From Sideroxydans sp. (GTDB lineage: Bacteria; Pseudomonadota; Gammaproteobacteria; Burkholderiales; Gallionellaceae), in contig DAIDAG010000066.1 in assembly GCA_027310725.1 (NCBI GenBank), positions 32,828 through 96,827 of the forward strand: DNA of 64,000 bases, given 5' to 3'. The notes beneath the pieces are model-generated. The model had not been told where the DNA came from and did not search any database. It saw nothing but the letters and a program-made list of their open reading frames with translations. The translations under genes were made by a program, and so were the position numbers. Shown piece by piece: positions 3,843-43,576 of this stretch. Position 1 is the first letter of the stretch. Each line of letters opens with the position of its first letter.

Positions 3843-4331
3843 CAGTTAGCGGTTAACCTTTCCGCACTACAATTCAAACGCGGCAACATCGCCGAAACAG
3901 TAACCAATGCGCTGGCACAATCCGGTCTGCCAGCAAATCAGTTGGAACTGGAACTGACCGAGTCCATTCTGTTGCACGATATGGATGTGGTCATGAAAAC
4001 GCTCCATGAATTGAAAGAAATTGGCATCAAGCTCTCCATCGATGATTTTGGTACAGGCTACTCCAGTTTGTCCTATCTAAAGCGACTGGCAGTAAATAAA
4101 CTCAAGATCGACAAGTCATTCGTGCGAAACATGGTGGAAGATCCTGAGGACACCGCCATCGTTAAAGCCATTATCCAGTTAGGTCATACCCTGCAACTGA
4201 CCGTCATCGCGGAAGGCGTGGAAACTGATGCCCAATTGTCATTACTAAAAAGCTTAGGGTGTGATCAGATTCAAGGGTATTTGATCAGTCGCCCATTAGC
4301 GGCCGAGGAATTCATCATGCTTTGTCAGTAA
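3843..4331 (+). pseudogene. 5'-truncated EAL-domain phosphodiesterase remnant
   Basis: Frame opens at QLAVNLSALQFKRGN and continues through ELTESILLHD and [17 protein letters not shown]; the N-terminal part including the EAL motif is missing. Confidence 0.75.
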
Positions 4332-4355: not shown

Positions 4356-7118
4356 TCAGAACTTTAACGATGGCAAACCTGAATTGAACTTGTGCGCCTT
4401 CTGTCCTAAAAGGGGGATTTCCTCCGCCGGCAGTGGCTTGCTGTAAAAATAGCCTTGCATGGCGTCGCAGCCCCGTTCGAGCAAGAAGTCGAACTGCTCC
4501 TGCGTTTCCACTCCTTCGGCCACCACTTTAAGGCGCAAGCTATGGGCCATGGCGATGATGGCGGCCACAATCGCCGCATCGTCCTGGTCGGTCGTAATAT
4601 CTCCTACAAAGGATTTGTCGATCTTGATAGTGTCGATGGGCAGGCGTTTGAGGTAACTCAGCGAAGAATAGCCGGTTCCGAAATCGTCGATAAAGATGCG
4701 CATTCCCTTTGCGCTCAACGCCTGCAGGACATTGGCCGCCATCGAAAGGCTTTGCATCAGGATGCTTTCGGTAATCTCCAATTCCAGCCAGGATGGATCT
4801 ATCCCCGTTTCCTCAAGCACTCGCTCGATGGTTTCAACCAAGCCGTGCTCTGGCCGCTTCGCCAAATGACCGCCTCTCCCCGTTTCACTGGTAGTCGATA
4901 AATGCCTGAATTGCCGCGCCGACAGATTCACCGCCACCGGCAACAGCACTCCTTGCTGTTGCCAGTCCCTAATTTGCAGACACGCGGTTCGCAGAACCCA
5001 TTCGCCGATCGGGACGATCAGGCCGGTTTCCTCCGCAAGGGGAATGAACTGGTCGGGCGGGATCATGCCCTTGGTCGGATGCGCCCAGCGCAGCAGCGCC
5101 TCCAGCCCGATCACGGCGCCGCTCGCGAGATCCACCTTGGGCTGATAGTGAAGCAGCAACTCGTCCCGTTCCAGAGCCTTGCGCAAGCTGTTCTCCAGAG
5201 TGAGCCGTTCCGGCGACAGTTGCTCCAGTTCGGGCCTATAGAACTGATATCCCAAGCCTTGCTCCTTGGCTTGGTACATGGCGCCGTCCGCGCACCGGAT
5301 GAGGCTGTCCGCATCGATGGCATCCGAGGGATAAAGGGCGATGCCGATGCTGGCTGAGGCGAAAACTTCATGCTCTTCCAACTGAAAAGGCTGAGCCAAG
5401 GCGTCCTGGATTTTCTGGGCAACGAGGGCGGCATCCTGCATTTCGGAAAGTCCCCGCAGCATCACCACGAATTCATCGCCTCCCAAGCGGGCCAGCATGT
5501 CATCCCCCAAGCGGGCCAGCACATCGCCCCTGCGGAAACAGCCGGCGAGCCGCTCGGCCACCAGCAGCAGCAACTTGTCGCCCACCGTGTGACCCAGAGT
5601 GTCGTTGATCAGCTTGAACCGATCCAGGTCAAGAAACAGCACCGCCAACTGCTCCCCATTCAGCGCCGCTTCATTCAGGCTGATGCCGAGACGTTCCCGG
5701 AAAAATTTGCGGTTGGGAAGGTTGGTCAGCGAATCGTGATGGGCCAGATGCATCAACTGGTGTTCGAACTGCTTGCGTTCGGTCAGGTCTCGCAGCACAT
5801 AGGTAATGAAACTCCCCTCAGTTCCTTTGAAGAAGCTGCTGGATCCCTCCACCATGAACATCGTGCCGTCGCGGCGATGCCCCTGAGTTTCCCACACCAG
5901 CCTGCGCTGCAATCCCTCATCCAGTTGGCTGGACAGCGGCTCCGGCAGCACCGTTTCGATCGGTCGCTCCAGCGCCTGGTTGCGGCGATAGCCGAACATG
6001 CGTTCCGCCGCCTGATTGAAATAGGCGATTTTCCCCTCGGGGTCGGTCATGATGATTCCGTCGTGGGCGGTTTCCGCCAGGTCCCGGAAACGGCGCTCGG
6101 ATTCCAGTGCGGTGGCGCGCAACTTCTCCTCTTCAGCGAGATCCTCCACAATCAGAAGCAGCCGCGCTTCTTCTTCTTCTTCTTCTGCAAGATGGATTCC
6201 AGTCAGGGTCACGCTCATCGGTATGCGCTCGGAGCCATCCGCCAGCCCCATGCTAAAAGGGACGTCATGCTGCGCGATCCCGGTAGCCAGGACTTCCAGT
6301 GCTCGCCCCCGCAGTCCATCTGCCGCGATCACGTCCAACAGATAGCTGCCATGCGCGGCCTCTTCCGTGAGCTCAAAACGTTTCAGGAAAGCCCTGTTGG
6401 CGGACAAGACGGTAAGGTTTGACGAAAGTACAACCAATCCATCCGGGATATTGGCAAATACGATGTCGGCATATTCTTTCAGCGTCAGGATGGTTTGCTG
6501 ATCGGCCTGAATATAGGTGTCGATAGCCAGTCCCATGTCCAGCAGGACGATTTTGATCAGCGCTTGGCAGGTAGCCATAAATGCTGTCGGATCTTCCCCG
6601 AGCCGCTGCCAGATTTCGGGGAACAATCCTGCCAGGTATTTGCTATAGGCACCCAGATACCATTCCGGTGCAAGGCCGACACGCTGGTGGGCGACTCCGA
6701 CACGCAGGCGGTGGTGGATATAATCCTGTCCGTAGTCGCCGGCGGTGAGACTGCTGAAATAAATCGCCTGGGTATGCTTCAGGTGATCCAGAAATTGAGC
6801 ATCGGGAATGAAGCGGCGGGTTTCTTCATGGGACAGCAGATGGGTGTAAAAGGCATCGACGAAATCCGGCGTCCGGGTCTGCAGGGCTTCATGCAACGTC
6901 CGCAACCGCGCCACATCGTCATCGGTGAACTCCAGGAAAACCTTGCGCCGAACGACGGCGGCTTCGTCGATACCGAGTGCTCGCACGACGGCCTCGACGG
7001 CCTCATTCAAGGGCTTCATCTTCTCCGGCCTCGCCGCCATAAGCCAGGAAGGGGAGACAAAACCGCCGTCAGGCTTGCTTGCTTGCTTGCGCAAGATTTC
7101 TTCCATAGACGACCTCAC
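4356..7118 (-). CDS. Globin-coupled (protoglobin) - PAS - GGDEF - EAL cyclic-di-GMP protein
   Basis: N-terminal protoglobin-like region ([24 protein letters not shown]), PAS ([24 protein letters not shown]), [31 protein letters not shown]. Confidence 0.9.
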
Positions 7119-7189: not shown

Positions 7190-8428
7190 TTACGGACTCA
7201 TGCGATTACACAGCGGCGGCGCGCCGAACGTTTCGCAGAATACCCGGTACAGTTCCCGCTCCGCCAAGCGCCATTCATCGCTGATCAGGCGAAACCGCAC
7301 CCGCGCGGCGCCGTCTGCGACGTGGTTATGGAGCAACGCGTTATCGCTGTTGCCGCGCAGGTGATCCCCCAGGCGTTTGCGCAAATCTCCGGTCGAGCCG
7401 ATATAAACTACGCCGTGCGGCGTTGGCGGCATACTTTTCCCTGGCCATGCTGCCTTTTCTCCATCGGGGGAGGAAGCGGAAACCGCCCGAATCTCATACA
7501 CCCCGGGGTGGGCCGGAACCGCGGTTCGCAACGCTTGAGGGGTCAGCGGTACCAGTGCGGAAAACTCCTCGGTCGCCGCCAGATAATTAATACGGTGGCT
7601 GCGGTTTCGACAATCGGGAATCGCCAGGTCATGCCGGATGTTGGCCACCGTGCGCCGCAGCAAGCGTATGCCGTATTCGCGTTCGAGAATGTCGGCAATG
7701 GCTTTGTCCGTCAGCGGTTCTCGCAATACCCTCTCGGCCATCCATACTTTTTCTGTTTTTATCACATGATCCACGAAATGGCAATGAACCTGCCGCGGCT
7801 TCGGAAACAGGGTGTTTAACGGCACCACTTTTCTGTTCGGCAACATGATCGACAGCCCGCGCACCAGCCGGGAGATCCGGCCGGGATCCGCCACCACGGA
7901 AAGATTCGATCCTGAGATCAGACGTGCGGAGATTTCCGCCTGGGTCAAGGGCAGGAGCGCCAAGCCCAGCCCTGAGCGCAGATACTCTGCTTGCGAGGTC
8001 AGCACTGCCTGCATCAGCGCATGGGTGAGCCGGTTCCGGGTGTTGATGAGACGCAACCTGCGCAATATGCCCGCCCATTCAGCCGGAAAGTCAGGACGGG
8101 ACATCAGGTAGTTCACTCCTTCCTCATCGAACCGGTATTCCCGCGTACAGCTATCCCGGTGGTAGAGGAACGTCAGGTTCCGGCCCGCCTCGTGAACTTC
8201 TCCCAGGATCGGGGATGATTGGGTCTGAAGGATGCCGGTCGCATCATGTACCGCCTGCGCGCCTTCCAGTCGGCCAACGGTTACCCATTGATGCATACCG
8301 TTATGCACGATGGAAGACTCCGCCTGGACCGCAAGGCGATCAAAAGCCCGCAGCGGCAATTCCAGAAAGCGGGCGAGCACGATTTTGCCGAGCAGTGCGG
8401 CTTCAATCTTATTGTTATGGTGCTGCAA
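7190..8428 (-). CDS. Sigma-54 (RpoN)-like protein fused to C-terminal GIY-YIG domain
   Basis: RpoN-box-like LTDKAIADILEREYGIRLLRRTVANIRHDLAIP; core-binding HTH-like LLPLTQAEISARL...DPGRISRLVRG; C-terminal GVYEIRA...VVYIGSTGDLRKRLGDHL...FGAPPLCN. TTG start uncertain. Confidence 0.7.
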   Translation of the reverse strand: MQHHNNKIEAALLGKIVLARFLELPLRAFDRLAVQAESSIVHNGMHQWVTVGRLEGAQAVHDATGILQTQSSPILGEVHEAGRNLTFLYHRDSCTREYRFDEEGVNYLMSRPDFPAEWAGILRRLRLINTRNRLTHALMQAVLTSQAEYLRSGLGLALLPLTQAEISARLISGSNLSVVADPGRISRLVRGLSIMLPNRKVVPLNTLFPKPRQVHCHFVDHVIKTEKVWMAERVLREPLTDKAIADILEREYGIRLLRRTVANIRHDLAIPDCRNRSHRINYLAATEEFSALVPLTPQALRTAVPAHPGVYEIRAVSASSPDGEKAAWPGKSMPPTPHGVVYIGSTGDLRKRLGDHLRGNSDNALLHNHVADGAARVRFRLISDEWRLAERELYRVFCETFGAPPLCNRMSP

Positions 8429-8557: not shown

Positions 8558-9607
8558 TTAGGTATTGCGGAGGTTGGTTTTTTCCAAATGCGTAATCGTG
8601 GACTGCAGGGAGGTGACCTCACGGAAAAGCGCCAGTTTTTCCTGATCAAGTTTTTCCGCTTTATCTTCTGCACTGACAAGACGCTCCGTGAGCAGTTCTG
8701 TTTGCTTTTCCTGTGCCGCCAGTGCCATACGGGATTCAGTCAATTCCTGCTGTACCGCCTCGAATTTACTGGTGAGCATCTGGTTGGTTGTCGTAATTTC
8801 CCTGAATTGATATGCCAATTGATTCCGCTCCAACTGGGTCGATGCCAACTCGTCCTGCGATGCGCGCGCTGTTTCTTTCAGGTGGGTATTTTCAGGACGC
8901 AGATGTGTAAGCTCCGTTTCCTGCTGTGCGATGGTCGACTGCAGTCCCTGCAGTCTTTGCTGGGCACTTGAGAGATCCTGTTCCAGTCGCGCAATCCGCT
9001 GTTCAGCGGCGTGCCGTTCTTCAGCCCGTTGTGCAGCCGTCGCTTCCTGATAATGTTCAAACTGGGTTCGAGTCTGCGTCTGTTGCTGATTGAGTGCTGC
9101 TACCTCTGCGGCCCGGTCCGCCAGACGCTGCTGCAGGCCGGCGTTGTCGCTTTGTAGTGTGGCCAGCGTAACGCTCTGTGAATGATGCTCTACCTGCAGA
9201 AGCGCAAGTGCGTCCTGTGCCTGCTTTAGCTCTGCAGACAATCCAATCTTTTCTTCGTACAGGAGACGGTTGTCAGTTTCTAATTGCCGGACCAGATCGG
9301 TCGCCGTCTGCAGTGCAATTCGATGAGTTTCGTTGACCTGTTCCAGTTGTTGATTGATGTCTGTCTGGAGTTTTTCGTAAACGCCTTTCATTGCCAACAG
9401 CAGTTCGGCGGGCAGCCCCAGCTCGGTTCCAACGACCGCATCCTGATGTTCCTCTTTCCAGCGTTTCAGCAGGGGCGCGATTGTGCTTTTGCTGCCCGTA
9501 CTACCCAGCGCTTCGCGGACGCTATCGACGGTCGGATTTTTGCCATCGGCTGCCAATTGGGCAGCCGCTTTGGCGACATGAGAATAGTGGATTCCTGCGC
9601 GCCCCAT
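8558..9607 (-). CDS. KfrA_N-type DNA-binding coiled-coil protein (TnpT-like)
   Basis: N-term GIHYSHVAKAAAQLAADGKNPTVDSVREALGSTGSKSTIAPLLKRW followed by long Gln/Glu coiled coil; divergent from tyrosine recombinase. Confidence 0.8.
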   Translation of the reverse strand: MGRAGIHYSHVAKAAAQLAADGKNPTVDSVREALGSTGSKSTIAPLLKRWKEEHQDAVVGTELGLPAELLLAMKGVYEKLQTDINQQLEQVNETHRIALQTATDLVRQLETDNRLLYEEKIGLSAELKQAQDALALLQVEHHSQSVTLATLQSDNAGLQQRLADRAAEVAALNQQQTQTRTQFEHYQEATAAQRAEERHAAEQRIARLEQDLSSAQQRLQGLQSTIAQQETELTHLRPENTHLKETARASQDELASTQLERNQLAYQFREITTTNQMLTSKFEAVQQELTESRMALAAQEKQTELLTERLVSAEDKAEKLDQEKLALFREVTSLQSTITHLEKTNLRNT

Positions 9608-9790: not shown

Positions 9791-10816
9791 ATGCCCCTTA
9801 AAAATGAGCACCCGATAATTACGAATTTGACTGAGAATTCTGCAAATCCGGTCAATCGTACCGGCAGTACGGCACTGACCGAGCCGGAGTTGCAGGAACG
9901 ACATCGCCAGTTTCTTTCAGCCGCCACCTCGGACAACACCAGGCGCACGTACCGTTCCGCCATTCGTCATTTCCAAACATGGGGCGGCGCCTTGCCATGC
10001 GAGCCAGCACTGGTAATCCGTTACCTGCTGAGCTACGCGCAAGAACTCAATCCGCGCACTCTGGCGTTGCGCTTAACGGCGCTGTCGCAGTGGCACCTGT
10101 TCCAGGGGTTCGCCGATCCGACTGCCAATCCGGACGTGCGCAAGACGTTGCGCGGTATCGCACGCACCCATGGCACGCCGAAAAAGAAAGCCAAGGCGTT
10201 GCCGATCGATGATCTGGAGACGATGGTAGCGGCGCTCGCAGACGACAATAGCTTGCAGGGCATGCGGAACAAGGCGTTGCTGCAGATTGCATACTTCGGC
10301 GCTTTTCGCAGAAGTGAAGTCTCCGCGCTGACAGTCGAAGAGCTGACTTGGGAACCGGATGGGCTGACCATCACCTTGTTCCGCTCTAAGACCGACCAGG
10401 AGGGTGAAGGCGTTGTCAAAGCCATTCCCTACGGCGAGCCAGGCGGCATTTGCTGTCCAGTGACGGCCTTGAAAGATTGGCTGACGGCCGCCAACATCAC
10501 AACCGGCCCGATATTTCGACGCGTGACACGCGAGGGAGTTGTGGGCACCGATCCGCTTTACCCTGGTAGCATCAACGATATACTCAAGTCCTGCGCAACC
10601 TTAGCTGGCCTAGCTTATGTGCCTGAACTGAGCGGCCACAGCTTTAGGAGGGGATTGGCCACCAGCGCATATCGCGCCGGTGCCGACTTCAAGAATATCA
10701 AGCGCCAAGGCGGCTGGCGTCATGACGGTACAGTGCAGGGCTATATCGACGAAGCGAGTCAGTTCGAAGAGAATGCGGCGGGAAGTTTGCTGCGTCGACG
10801 TCCTAGCGCAAAATAA
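9791..10816 (+). CDS. Tyrosine recombinase (TnpS-like)
   Basis: Phage-integrase family motifs GAFRRSEVSAL, LSGHSFRRGLAT, QGGWRHDGTVQGYID. Confidence 0.85.
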   Translation: MPLKNEHPIITNLTENSANPVNRTGSTALTEPELQERHRQFLSAATSDNTRRTYRSAIRHFQTWGGALPCEPALVIRYLLSYAQELNPRTLALRLTALSQWHLFQGFADPTANPDVRKTLRGIARTHGTPKKKAKALPIDDLETMVAALADDNSLQGMRNKALLQIAYFGAFRRSEVSALTVEELTWEPDGLTITLFRSKTDQEGEGVVKAIPYGEPGGICCPVTALKDWLTAANITTGPIFRRVTREGVVGTDPLYPGSINDILKSCATLAGLAYVPELSGHSFRRGLATSAYRAGADFKNIKRQGGWRHDGTVQGYIDEASQFEENAAGSLLRRRPSAK

Positions 10817-41935: not shown

Positions 41936-43576
41936 TCAATTCACTGCACCAAGTCGTGTACCAGTTGCTAACCATGTTGCCAGTGCGGCACCAACAGTCG
42001 CTTGACCAGCGGCGCCTCCATATCCGGCACCGCCTTGTGGGCCTCGGCAACTTGAACCAGGCATGCCCAAAGCACCACCAGCCCCACCCCATCCGGCAAG
42101 GTTGCCACCACTCCCGGACACACCCGGCCCGCCAGTAGTTAAACTACCGTTTGTGGAGTGATATGGACTGCCTATATTTGAAGTCAATCCATAACCCGCG
42201 CCGCCACCGCCATCTACGCCCCAATAACCTGAGTTAGCGCCGCCGCCACCACCACCACCACCACCACCAGCAATAACCCCATAATTAGAAATCTTGAGAT
42301 TTGCCGAAGGGCTGGCTGTAATGAGCATGCCATTTCCGCCAGCACCTCCATTGGTGGCTTGAGCATTCCACGGTGTTCCATAGCCGGAGGTTCCGCCTTT
42401 TCCGACTACATACGCACCAGAATTTATTACTACTGAAAGTGAAGATCCTGACGGATAGTTGCCGGTGATCGAAAATGCATAGGTCGAAGTCGAACTGCCT
42501 GAGACAACCACTCCTCCATTTACACTTACATTTGCAATAAGTGCTGCAACGCCGTCCCAACCAGAAGCGATCGCGTCGTTGTAAAGGTTGTAATCCGTCG
42601 TATTTCCAGCAATGACTCTGTTGAAGTTGTATGGTGGAACTTTCGATGAAGATGTCCAGGAACCATTGACACACGCGTAGATCGACCCGTCAGATCCCTT
42701 CGCTATTGAACCATTCGCCACACCTGGAGCACATGCCGTGCCTGCCACAATGATGGTATTTGGCATAATGTACGCGCCAGATACCTTCCCGGTCGCGGAT
42801 ATATTTCCGGCTGACGTGATGTTTCCACTCGCGGTTATCGTACTGGCAGTTAAGGTGCCAAGATTTGCGCTCGTTGCGGTAACACCGGATGCTCCGTTGA
42901 TTGCCAACGCACCATTCAATGTGAGATTGCGTGTATCACCGTTGCGAATAAATTGGCTGAACCCCTGTGATCCATATCCAGTGCGCATGGCAACCACCGC
43001 AGCGGCATTGGATGCCGCAACGGGATTTGTGGCTGTCCATGAACTGTTTTCACCTGCAATGACCGCAAGATTGGAAGTCAGCGATGTGCCACCATCGCCG
43101 CCGACCTTGCCTGCTGTTCTGGATGCCAGCATCCAGTCAGGTCTGCCATCGGCAATCTTGATGAAACCCTTATCTGAATAAACGATGGCGTTCAGGTCAC
43201 ATGCCGGTGCAACACATCCAGTTGGCGTCTTGCCGATCTGGATAAGCCAGTTTGTTCTGGCTAAATTCTGGGTCTGGACGTTTTGCGCAAGATACCCGGT
43301 GTTTTTGAGTTCAGTAATTGTTGGCAGAAGGGGGCTAGCTACGCCTGAGATCGCGGCACCCGATACCAGTGCATCAAAATTGCTGCTGATGTAGGTATTG
43401 ACACCACCAGTAACAGTTTTCAGATGTGCTGCAATGGCGGCTGATTTGTCATCTTGAATCGAGTCTTGCAGAAATCGCGTGTACGACATCATCAAGATAG
43501 ATGCGATCAGCAAAACAATGCTGATTTCCACCAGGGTAAAGCCCCTGAGCGCCTTTTTGAATCCGTTTTTCAACAT
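41936..43576 (-). CDS. pilV: PilV-like minor prepilin/adhesin with phage tail-fibre-type glycine-rich C-terminus
   Basis: Prepilin N-term LRGFTLVEISIVLLIASILMMSYTRFLQD; C-term GVIAGGGGGGGGGGANSGYWGVDGGGGAGYG...GGAGYGGAAGQ. Confidence 0.8.
   Translation of the reverse strand: MLKNGFKKALRGFTLVEISIVLLIASILMMSYTRFLQDSIQDDKSAAIAAHLKTVTGGVNTYISSNFDALVSGAAISGVASPLLPTITELKNTGYLAQNVQTQNLARTNWLIQIGKTPTGCVAPACDLNAIVYSDKGFIKIADGRPDWMLASRTAGKVGGDGGTSLTSNLAVIAGENSSWTATNPVAASNAAAVVAMRTGYGSQGFSQFIRNGDTRNLTLNGALAINGASGVTATSANLGTLTASTITASGNITSAGNISATGKVSGAYIMPNTIIVAGTACAPGVANGSIAKGSDGSIYACVNGSWTSSSKVPPYNFNRVIAGNTTDYNLYNDAIASGWDGVAALIANVSVNGGVVVSGSSTSTYAFSITGNYPSGSSLSVVINSGAYVVGKGGTSGYGTPWNAQATNGGAGGNGMLITASPSANLKISNYGVIAGGGGGGGGGGANSGYWGVDGGGGAGYGLTSNIGSPYHSTNGSLTTGGPGVSGSGGNLAGWGGAGGALGMPGSSCRGPQGGAGYGGAAGQATVGAALATWLATGTRLGAVN

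Follow-up and report, generated by a model that had tools for sequence, protein, structure and literature searches.

What is the purpose of a gene that joins the DNA-reading part of sigma-54 (RpoN) to a GIY-YIG nuclease domain, and which DNA does its product address? The question is raised by a gene in a 64,000-nucleotide stretch of a Sideroxydans sp. genome (assembly GCA_027310725.1, contig DAIDAG010000066.1, positions 32,828 to 96,827), the whole of which is called the window here. The fusion gene adjoins a gene for an enzyme of cyclic diguanylate (c-di-GMP) signalling, its partner, and the two together are referred to as a module. Both candidate sites found in the partner gene read TGGnA-N6-TTGC, i.e., they have the letters and the spacing of sigma-54 -24/-12 elements, and each is directly followed by a microsatellite. 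Judged from sequence, the fusion is probably a site-directed mutator of these microsatellites that controls the c-di-GMP enzyme.

The open reading frame on the minus strand is uninterrupted across 412 residues, and its initiating TTG is the first codon in most relatives as well. PF04552 (Sigma54_DBD) matched residues 126-276 with an E-value of 4.8e-9 (36.6 bits, cut-off 22.8) and was present in 13/13 relatives (best E 1.5e-10), and a profile built from 13 relatives matched the sigma-54 structure 5ui5 in the PDB (E 9.2e-11, profile positions 76-277). PF01541 (GIY-YIG) gave a weak C-terminal match of 20 bits on the full-length protein, 22.7 bits on a 116-residue C-terminal fragment (marginally above the cut-off of 22.6), and matches to the C-terminal fragments of 19/19 relatives. 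The best Foldseek matches of a full-length AlphaFold model of modest confidence (predicted local distance difference test score, pLDDT, 67) were to sigma-54 (5nwt, E 6.7e-5); its GIY-YIG part had a beta-beta-alpha-alpha-beta-alpha order with weak matches to R.Eco29kI and I-TevI. A model of the C-terminus alone (pLDDT 58) had no fold match and was too uncertain to be used. Invariant residues among relatives include G309 V310 Y311, Y342 I343 G344, R352, H356, E390 and N408 of the GIY-YIG domain, in which family the catalytic roles of the Arg and the Glu have been described (PMC9071465). These results bear out the first-pass annotation of this DNA, which had proposed a sigma-54-like protein fused to GIY-YIG. 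The RpoN box, which it had called degenerate, is not strongly so: LRRTVANIRH retains RRTVA and the later R, and R258, R259, R265 and H266 are invariant.

A working sigma factor was ruled out, because neither the core-binding domain (PF04963) nor Region I (PF00309) matched the fusion at E-values up to 10 and because the hosts carry a separate rpoN. The N-terminal ~125 residues, where a core-binding stretch had been expected, were without detectable match. PF04963 found a separate rpoN of ~500 residues in 7/8 genomes and never the fusion; a separate full-length rpoN was present in 6/6 near-complete carrier genomes tested, and the window's own genome, 65% complete, showed no rpoN. An assembly frameshift or artefact was also excluded, because the whole architecture recurs at 47-78% identity in other genomes and in ~30 loci altogether. 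An anti-phage defence or phage gene was rejected, as no match in PADLOC, PHROG, or phage or viral contigs was obtained. Altogether, the protein is predicted to be a DNA-binding scaffold of sigma-54 descent to which a nuclease domain is attached.

The ~30 loci fall into 14 clusters below 82% protein identity and belong mostly to Betaproteobacteria and plasmids. Relatives at 57-78% identity occur in Gallionella, Rhodoferax, Thiobacillus, Methylotenera, Glaciimonas, Methyloversatilis and others, and those at 46-49% in one genome of the same genus and on the plasmids pSTJ2 (Sulfuricystis multivorans) and pDCB1 (Diaphorobacter sp. JS3051), the latter conjugative. RefSeq names the plasmid pair "GIY-YIG nuclease family protein" and "EAL domain-containing protein". 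A more distant relative (G522) belongs to another family of the same class, and within the order the gene was found in 6/399 genomes. The window's genome carries a second fusion copy with its own partner, plus a small fragment: 26 N-terminal residues at 92% identity (G000:C2:21724-21801; L049 7659-7943), beside insertion sequence transposase genes and likely the remnant of a third copy.

At every readable locus the next gene downstream of the fusion, on the same strand, encodes a GGDEF-EAL protein. Site 1 with its adjoining (GCAA)n array lies at the partner start in every module except G522. With n counted as AAGC units after TTGCGC, the window has 4, most modules have 2-9, G071 has at least 9 (array partly masked), and G048 has 28 and 31. 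Site 2 precedes a poly-Glu stretch of the partner, encoded by (GAA)n of about 6-12 units. All 25 distinct sites with an array have the first G, the A and the TTGC, 24 of them have the second G and 22 the leading T, and the array starts at the first or second base past TTGC. Sigma-54 distorts DNA just downstream of the -12 element in the closed complex (PMC6028918), and the array start coincides with this zone. Coordinates are collected in the table.

Table. Features of the module, by position in the window.
Feature	Position	Strand	Remarks
Sigma-54 DNA-binding domain/GIY-YIG fusion protein	7190..8428	minus	412 residues, TTG start
Sigma-54 DNA-binding domain	7601..8053	minus	residues 126-276; PF04552, PDB profile match, Foldseek
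RpoN box LRRTVANIRH	7631..7660	minus	residues 257-266; presumed reader of the -24 GG
GIY-YIG domain	7193..7513	minus	residues 306-412; invariant GVY, YIGS, R352, H356, E390, N408
Site 1, TGGAAGAAATCTTGC	7091..7105	minus	partner start, sigma-54 -24/-12 spacing; overlaps leader ATG 7104-7106
(GCAA)4.5 microsatellite	7073..7090	minus	directly after site 1; n=4 AAGC units past TTGCGC, in frame with partner
Site 2, TGGAATCCATCTTGC	6187..6201	minus	within partner gene
(GAA)n microsatellite	6167..6186	minus	directly after site 2; poly-Glu between PAS regions
Partner gene, protoglobin-PAS-GGDEF-EAL (c-di-GMP enzyme)	4356..7118	minus	PF11563, PF00989, PF00990, PF00563

Site and array are associated. 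Across the ~450 kb of loci covered by these counts, TGGnA-N6-TTGC was directly followed by a microsatellite in 59 of 89 instances, and the corresponding controls gave 0/82 for TGGn[CGT], 0/43 for a scrambled -24 and 4/591 for six other spacings. Counted per cluster, site 1 with a GCAA array was present in 13/14 and site 2 with a GAA array in 12/14. Genome-wide counts, obtained by pattern searches, revealed an exclusive co-occurrence with the nuclease gene: of the 399 genomes in the order, six contained TTGCGC(AAGC)3, and the fusion gene was found in exactly these six; 8/8 of the places with this pattern lie just 3' of that gene or its remnant. Likewise, GG-N8-TTGC-N-(GAA)4 occupied six places among 150 genomes, all inside modules. 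GCAA arrays as a general trait of these genomes were ruled out, as the plain (GCAA)4+ arrays of six nuclease-less genomes were never preceded by the site. Additional TGG-N8-TTGC sites seemed enriched in the partner gene of the window, but the density across 22 modules was close to background (0.19 vs ~0.12 per kb), and the window's four have no A at position 5.

The sites are under constraint at the level of DNA, as the choice of codons shows. The peptides encoded by sites 1 and 2 differ, as do the reading frames. Ahead of Gly in site 2 stands a codon for Thr, Ala or Ser that ends in T in 24/24 (gene-wide frequency ~0.11), and Leu is encoded by CTT in 24/24 (gene-wide ~0.13); the Gly and Arg codons between the fixed ones vary. 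At the remnant locus of G048, the stretch before the array has diverged in sequence, yet it reads TGGCAAATGGCTTGC. Within the nuclease gene itself, the LRKR codons read TTGCGCAAGC; there is no expansion there, and TGG is missing at -24.

Repeat number varies between nearly identical loci. L015 and L025, with flanks 99.6-99.8% identical, have GCAA n of 5 vs 6 and second arrays of 5 vs 8, and L008 and L009, with flanks about 99% identical, have n of 6 vs 5 and GAA counts differing by one. All three phases (n mod 3 of 0, 1 and 2) are represented amongst the loci. In both modules of the window's genome (n=4 in the window, n=7 in the second copy) the leader runs through the array in frame into the partner, of 920 residues from GTG 7118 or 916 from ATG 7106; in many other loci it meets TGA directly after the array, or TAG shortly before the partner's likely ribosome-binding site and ATG. 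Two marks of simple sequence repeat (SSR) contingency loci are present here, a repeat in a translated leader with a frame-shifting number of units and variation among close relatives, and phase variation of the partner gene is plausible.

Natural variants of site or nuclease are few, and all point in the direction of a nuclease-driven array. In G092, a 95% complete genome of the same genus as G048, a search found no nuclease gene; the partner is present at 51% identity, with a mutated leader site (TAG...TTGCGC(AAGC)2), and the second site, TGGAATCCGCTTTGC, is followed by three GAA only. Its genus mate G048, which has the nuclease, carries arrays of 31, 28, 9 and 9 units. The spacing of the site in L023 is off by one, with n=2, and in L004 the TTGC of site 2 is lost and the GAA run interrupted. 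More distant nuclease-less GGDEF homologs had neither site nor array.

Phase variation at microsatellites is usually regarded as passive polymerase slippage. We incline slightly towards the wider proposal that directed microsatellite mutation has an enzyme of its own in bacteria, evolved from a sigma-54 scaffold by loss of RNA polymerase and gain of a nuclease, addressed by TGGnA-N6-TTGC and hypermutating a c-di-GMP enzyme at a frame switch and at a linker length. The sigma-54-derived helix-turn-helix (HTH) and RpoN box would bind the site in the absence of RNA polymerase and distort the DNA locally, and the GIY-YIG domain, attached by a linker of ~40 residues, would nick or cut beside it. Repair or re-copying would then add or remove units of the microsatellite that starts after TTGC. 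A change in (GCAA)n would shift the reading phase of the leader into the protein start, as an on/off or coupling switch, and a change in (GAA)n would alter the length of the poly-Glu linker between sensor and output domains, as a tuning knob. The first-pass annotation had suggested, in place of a working sigma factor, a repurposed scaffold by which a nuclease is brought to -24/-12 sites. The scaffold part fits well with the missing RNA-polymerase-binding domain, the separate rpoN and the sites of exact spacing in the adjacent gene. The partner gene and the microsatellites starting directly after each site had been overlooked, and in their light the likely function shifts from a promoter nuclease to a repeat-directed mutator.

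Several points weigh against a directed mutator. The site is not sufficient for an array, because 30 of the 89 matching sites are without one. The counted loci are related (14 clusters), and the set holds two of them twice (L002=L067, L024=L052). G522 has the GAA array alone. The stub arrays of a nuclease-less locus are known from one genome, whose leader -24 site is mutated too (TAG), and the nuclease of L052 is truncated, yet n is 6 there. The AlphaFold models are of low confidence for the full length and the C-terminus alike. In sigma-54 the RpoN box is placed at the -24 element, the side remote from the array. The GIY-YIG domain follows this box towards the C-terminus, and the ~40-residue linker must therefore carry the nuclease round to the array; I-TevI is an example of a linker with such reach. 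Finally, binding, cutting, the causation of repeat change and the effect on c-di-GMP are what we infer from the patterns above.

The same patterns can be set against other explanations. SSR contingency loci vary through slippage in the absence of a dedicated enzyme (PMC4081817), and the position of site 1, at the partner start, would suit a regulator; the arrays might accordingly be ordinary slippage loci and the fusion a site-specific repressor or RpoN competitor whose nuclease does not drive the repeats. We consider this unlikely, as it leaves unexplained site 2, which lies deep in the coding region before a different repeat type, and the restriction of site plus array to nuclease genomes; the GIY-YIG catalytic residues, all invariant, and the stub arrays where the nuclease gene is missing also speak against it. 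Host sigma-54 could instead use the sites as true RpoN promoters, with the repeats as initial-transcribed-region or spacer elements and the fusion coincidental or fine-tuning, and rpoN was indeed present in all six near-complete carriers tested. This seems very improbable, since such a site and array are missing from most of the 399 genomes and from relatives that do have rpoN, G092 for example, and an internal promoter in the PAS linker of nearly every lineage would be odd.

A selfish or homing-type nuclease that spreads with the operon and leaves microsatellites as scars of cutting and repair, of no benefit to the host, would agree with the GIY-YIG domain, typical of homing enzymes, and with the patchy distribution, the plasmid copies, and the duplicates and remnants in one genome. 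The gene is, however, not inserted in its target and no intron or intein is present; in addition, the partner type is constant across readable loci and the sites are intact across half-diverged homologs, which makes this explanation distinctly doubtful.

Genes upstream of the fusion are not conserved between modules. In the window, a KfrA_N coiled-coil gene (8558-9607, minus) and a divergent tyrosine recombinase gene (9791-10816, plus) adjoin the module; both were rejected as parts of the system, being found beside the module in the window only, and are perhaps a separate mobile element. The GGDEF domain of the window's partner contains a 24-bp imperfect tandem duplication (5482-5530, minus), by which the active site of this particular cyclase may be disturbed, and a lone EAL-domain fragment of 129 residues (3942-4331, plus) is flanked by the partner gene and an efflux-pump-like gene. 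L015, L019 and L025 carry a further TGGnA-N6-TTGC with (GCAA)n ahead of a second GGDEF gene downstream, and one nuclease gene may serve two targets there.

Other repeats were also encountered. L103, L104 and L107 (G078, G063 and G055) hold (GCAA)n of 11-30 units in the absence of nuclease or site, with mutually similar flanks GGTGGATGA, and are perhaps a separate contingency locus. An 8-bp tandem repeat, CGGAATCA, is present in 16.8 copies at L006 454-587. At 42246-42269 of the window lies (CCA)8, the minus strand of which shows TTGC before (TGG)8, with the -24 spacing absent.

If the proposed mechanism is true, programmed mutation would gain a new class, in which an enzyme with a sequence address makes or moves microsatellites, and the DNA-reading part of a sigma factor would have been reused outside transcription. 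In iron- and sulfur-oxidising betaproteobacteria it would also link c-di-GMP signalling with heritable switching, and it could offer a tool for targeted change of repeat length. Open-licence papers, searched for sigma-54/GIY-YIG fusions, GIY-YIG phase variation, nuclease-driven repeats, and repeats with GGDEF proteins or diguanylate cyclases, yielded no description of such a system; a 2025 review of phase variation never uses the word nuclease (PMC11868660).

Individually, the components resemble known systems. Like Region III of RpoN, the fusion has an HTH and an RpoN box and a presumed -24/-12 site of the same spacing; unlike RpoN, it has no core-binding or Region I match, carries GIY-YIG and coexists with the host rpoN. 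With the GIY-YIG nucleases I-TevI, I-BmoI, UvrC and SLX1 it shares GVY...YIG and the Arg, His, Glu and Asn, and with I-TevI also a sequence-specific DNA-binding domain joined to GIY-YIG by a linker, binding by the fusion being presumed from its sequence. It differs from these nucleases in that its binding domain is N-terminal (the reversed order) and sigma-54-derived, and in being coupled to microsatellites and not intron-borne. Unlike homing endonuclease genes, the modules keep intact sites beside the fusion gene and have no intron or intein. The SSR contingency loci of Haemophilus and Neisseria likewise have tetranucleotide repeats in a translated 5' region, with three phases and variation between near-identical loci, whereas an adjacent dedicated nuclease gene, a fixed protein-binding-type site before each array and two repeat types per gene set the present modules apart. 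As with the Hin and FimB/E recombinases and diversity-generating retroelements, the enzyme gene adjoins the DNA that it is presumed to vary, but there is no inversion and no reverse transcriptase, and it is repeat number that varies rather than orientation or base substitution. The parts are known; their combination, above all a protein-binding-type address before microsatellites, fits no known kind.
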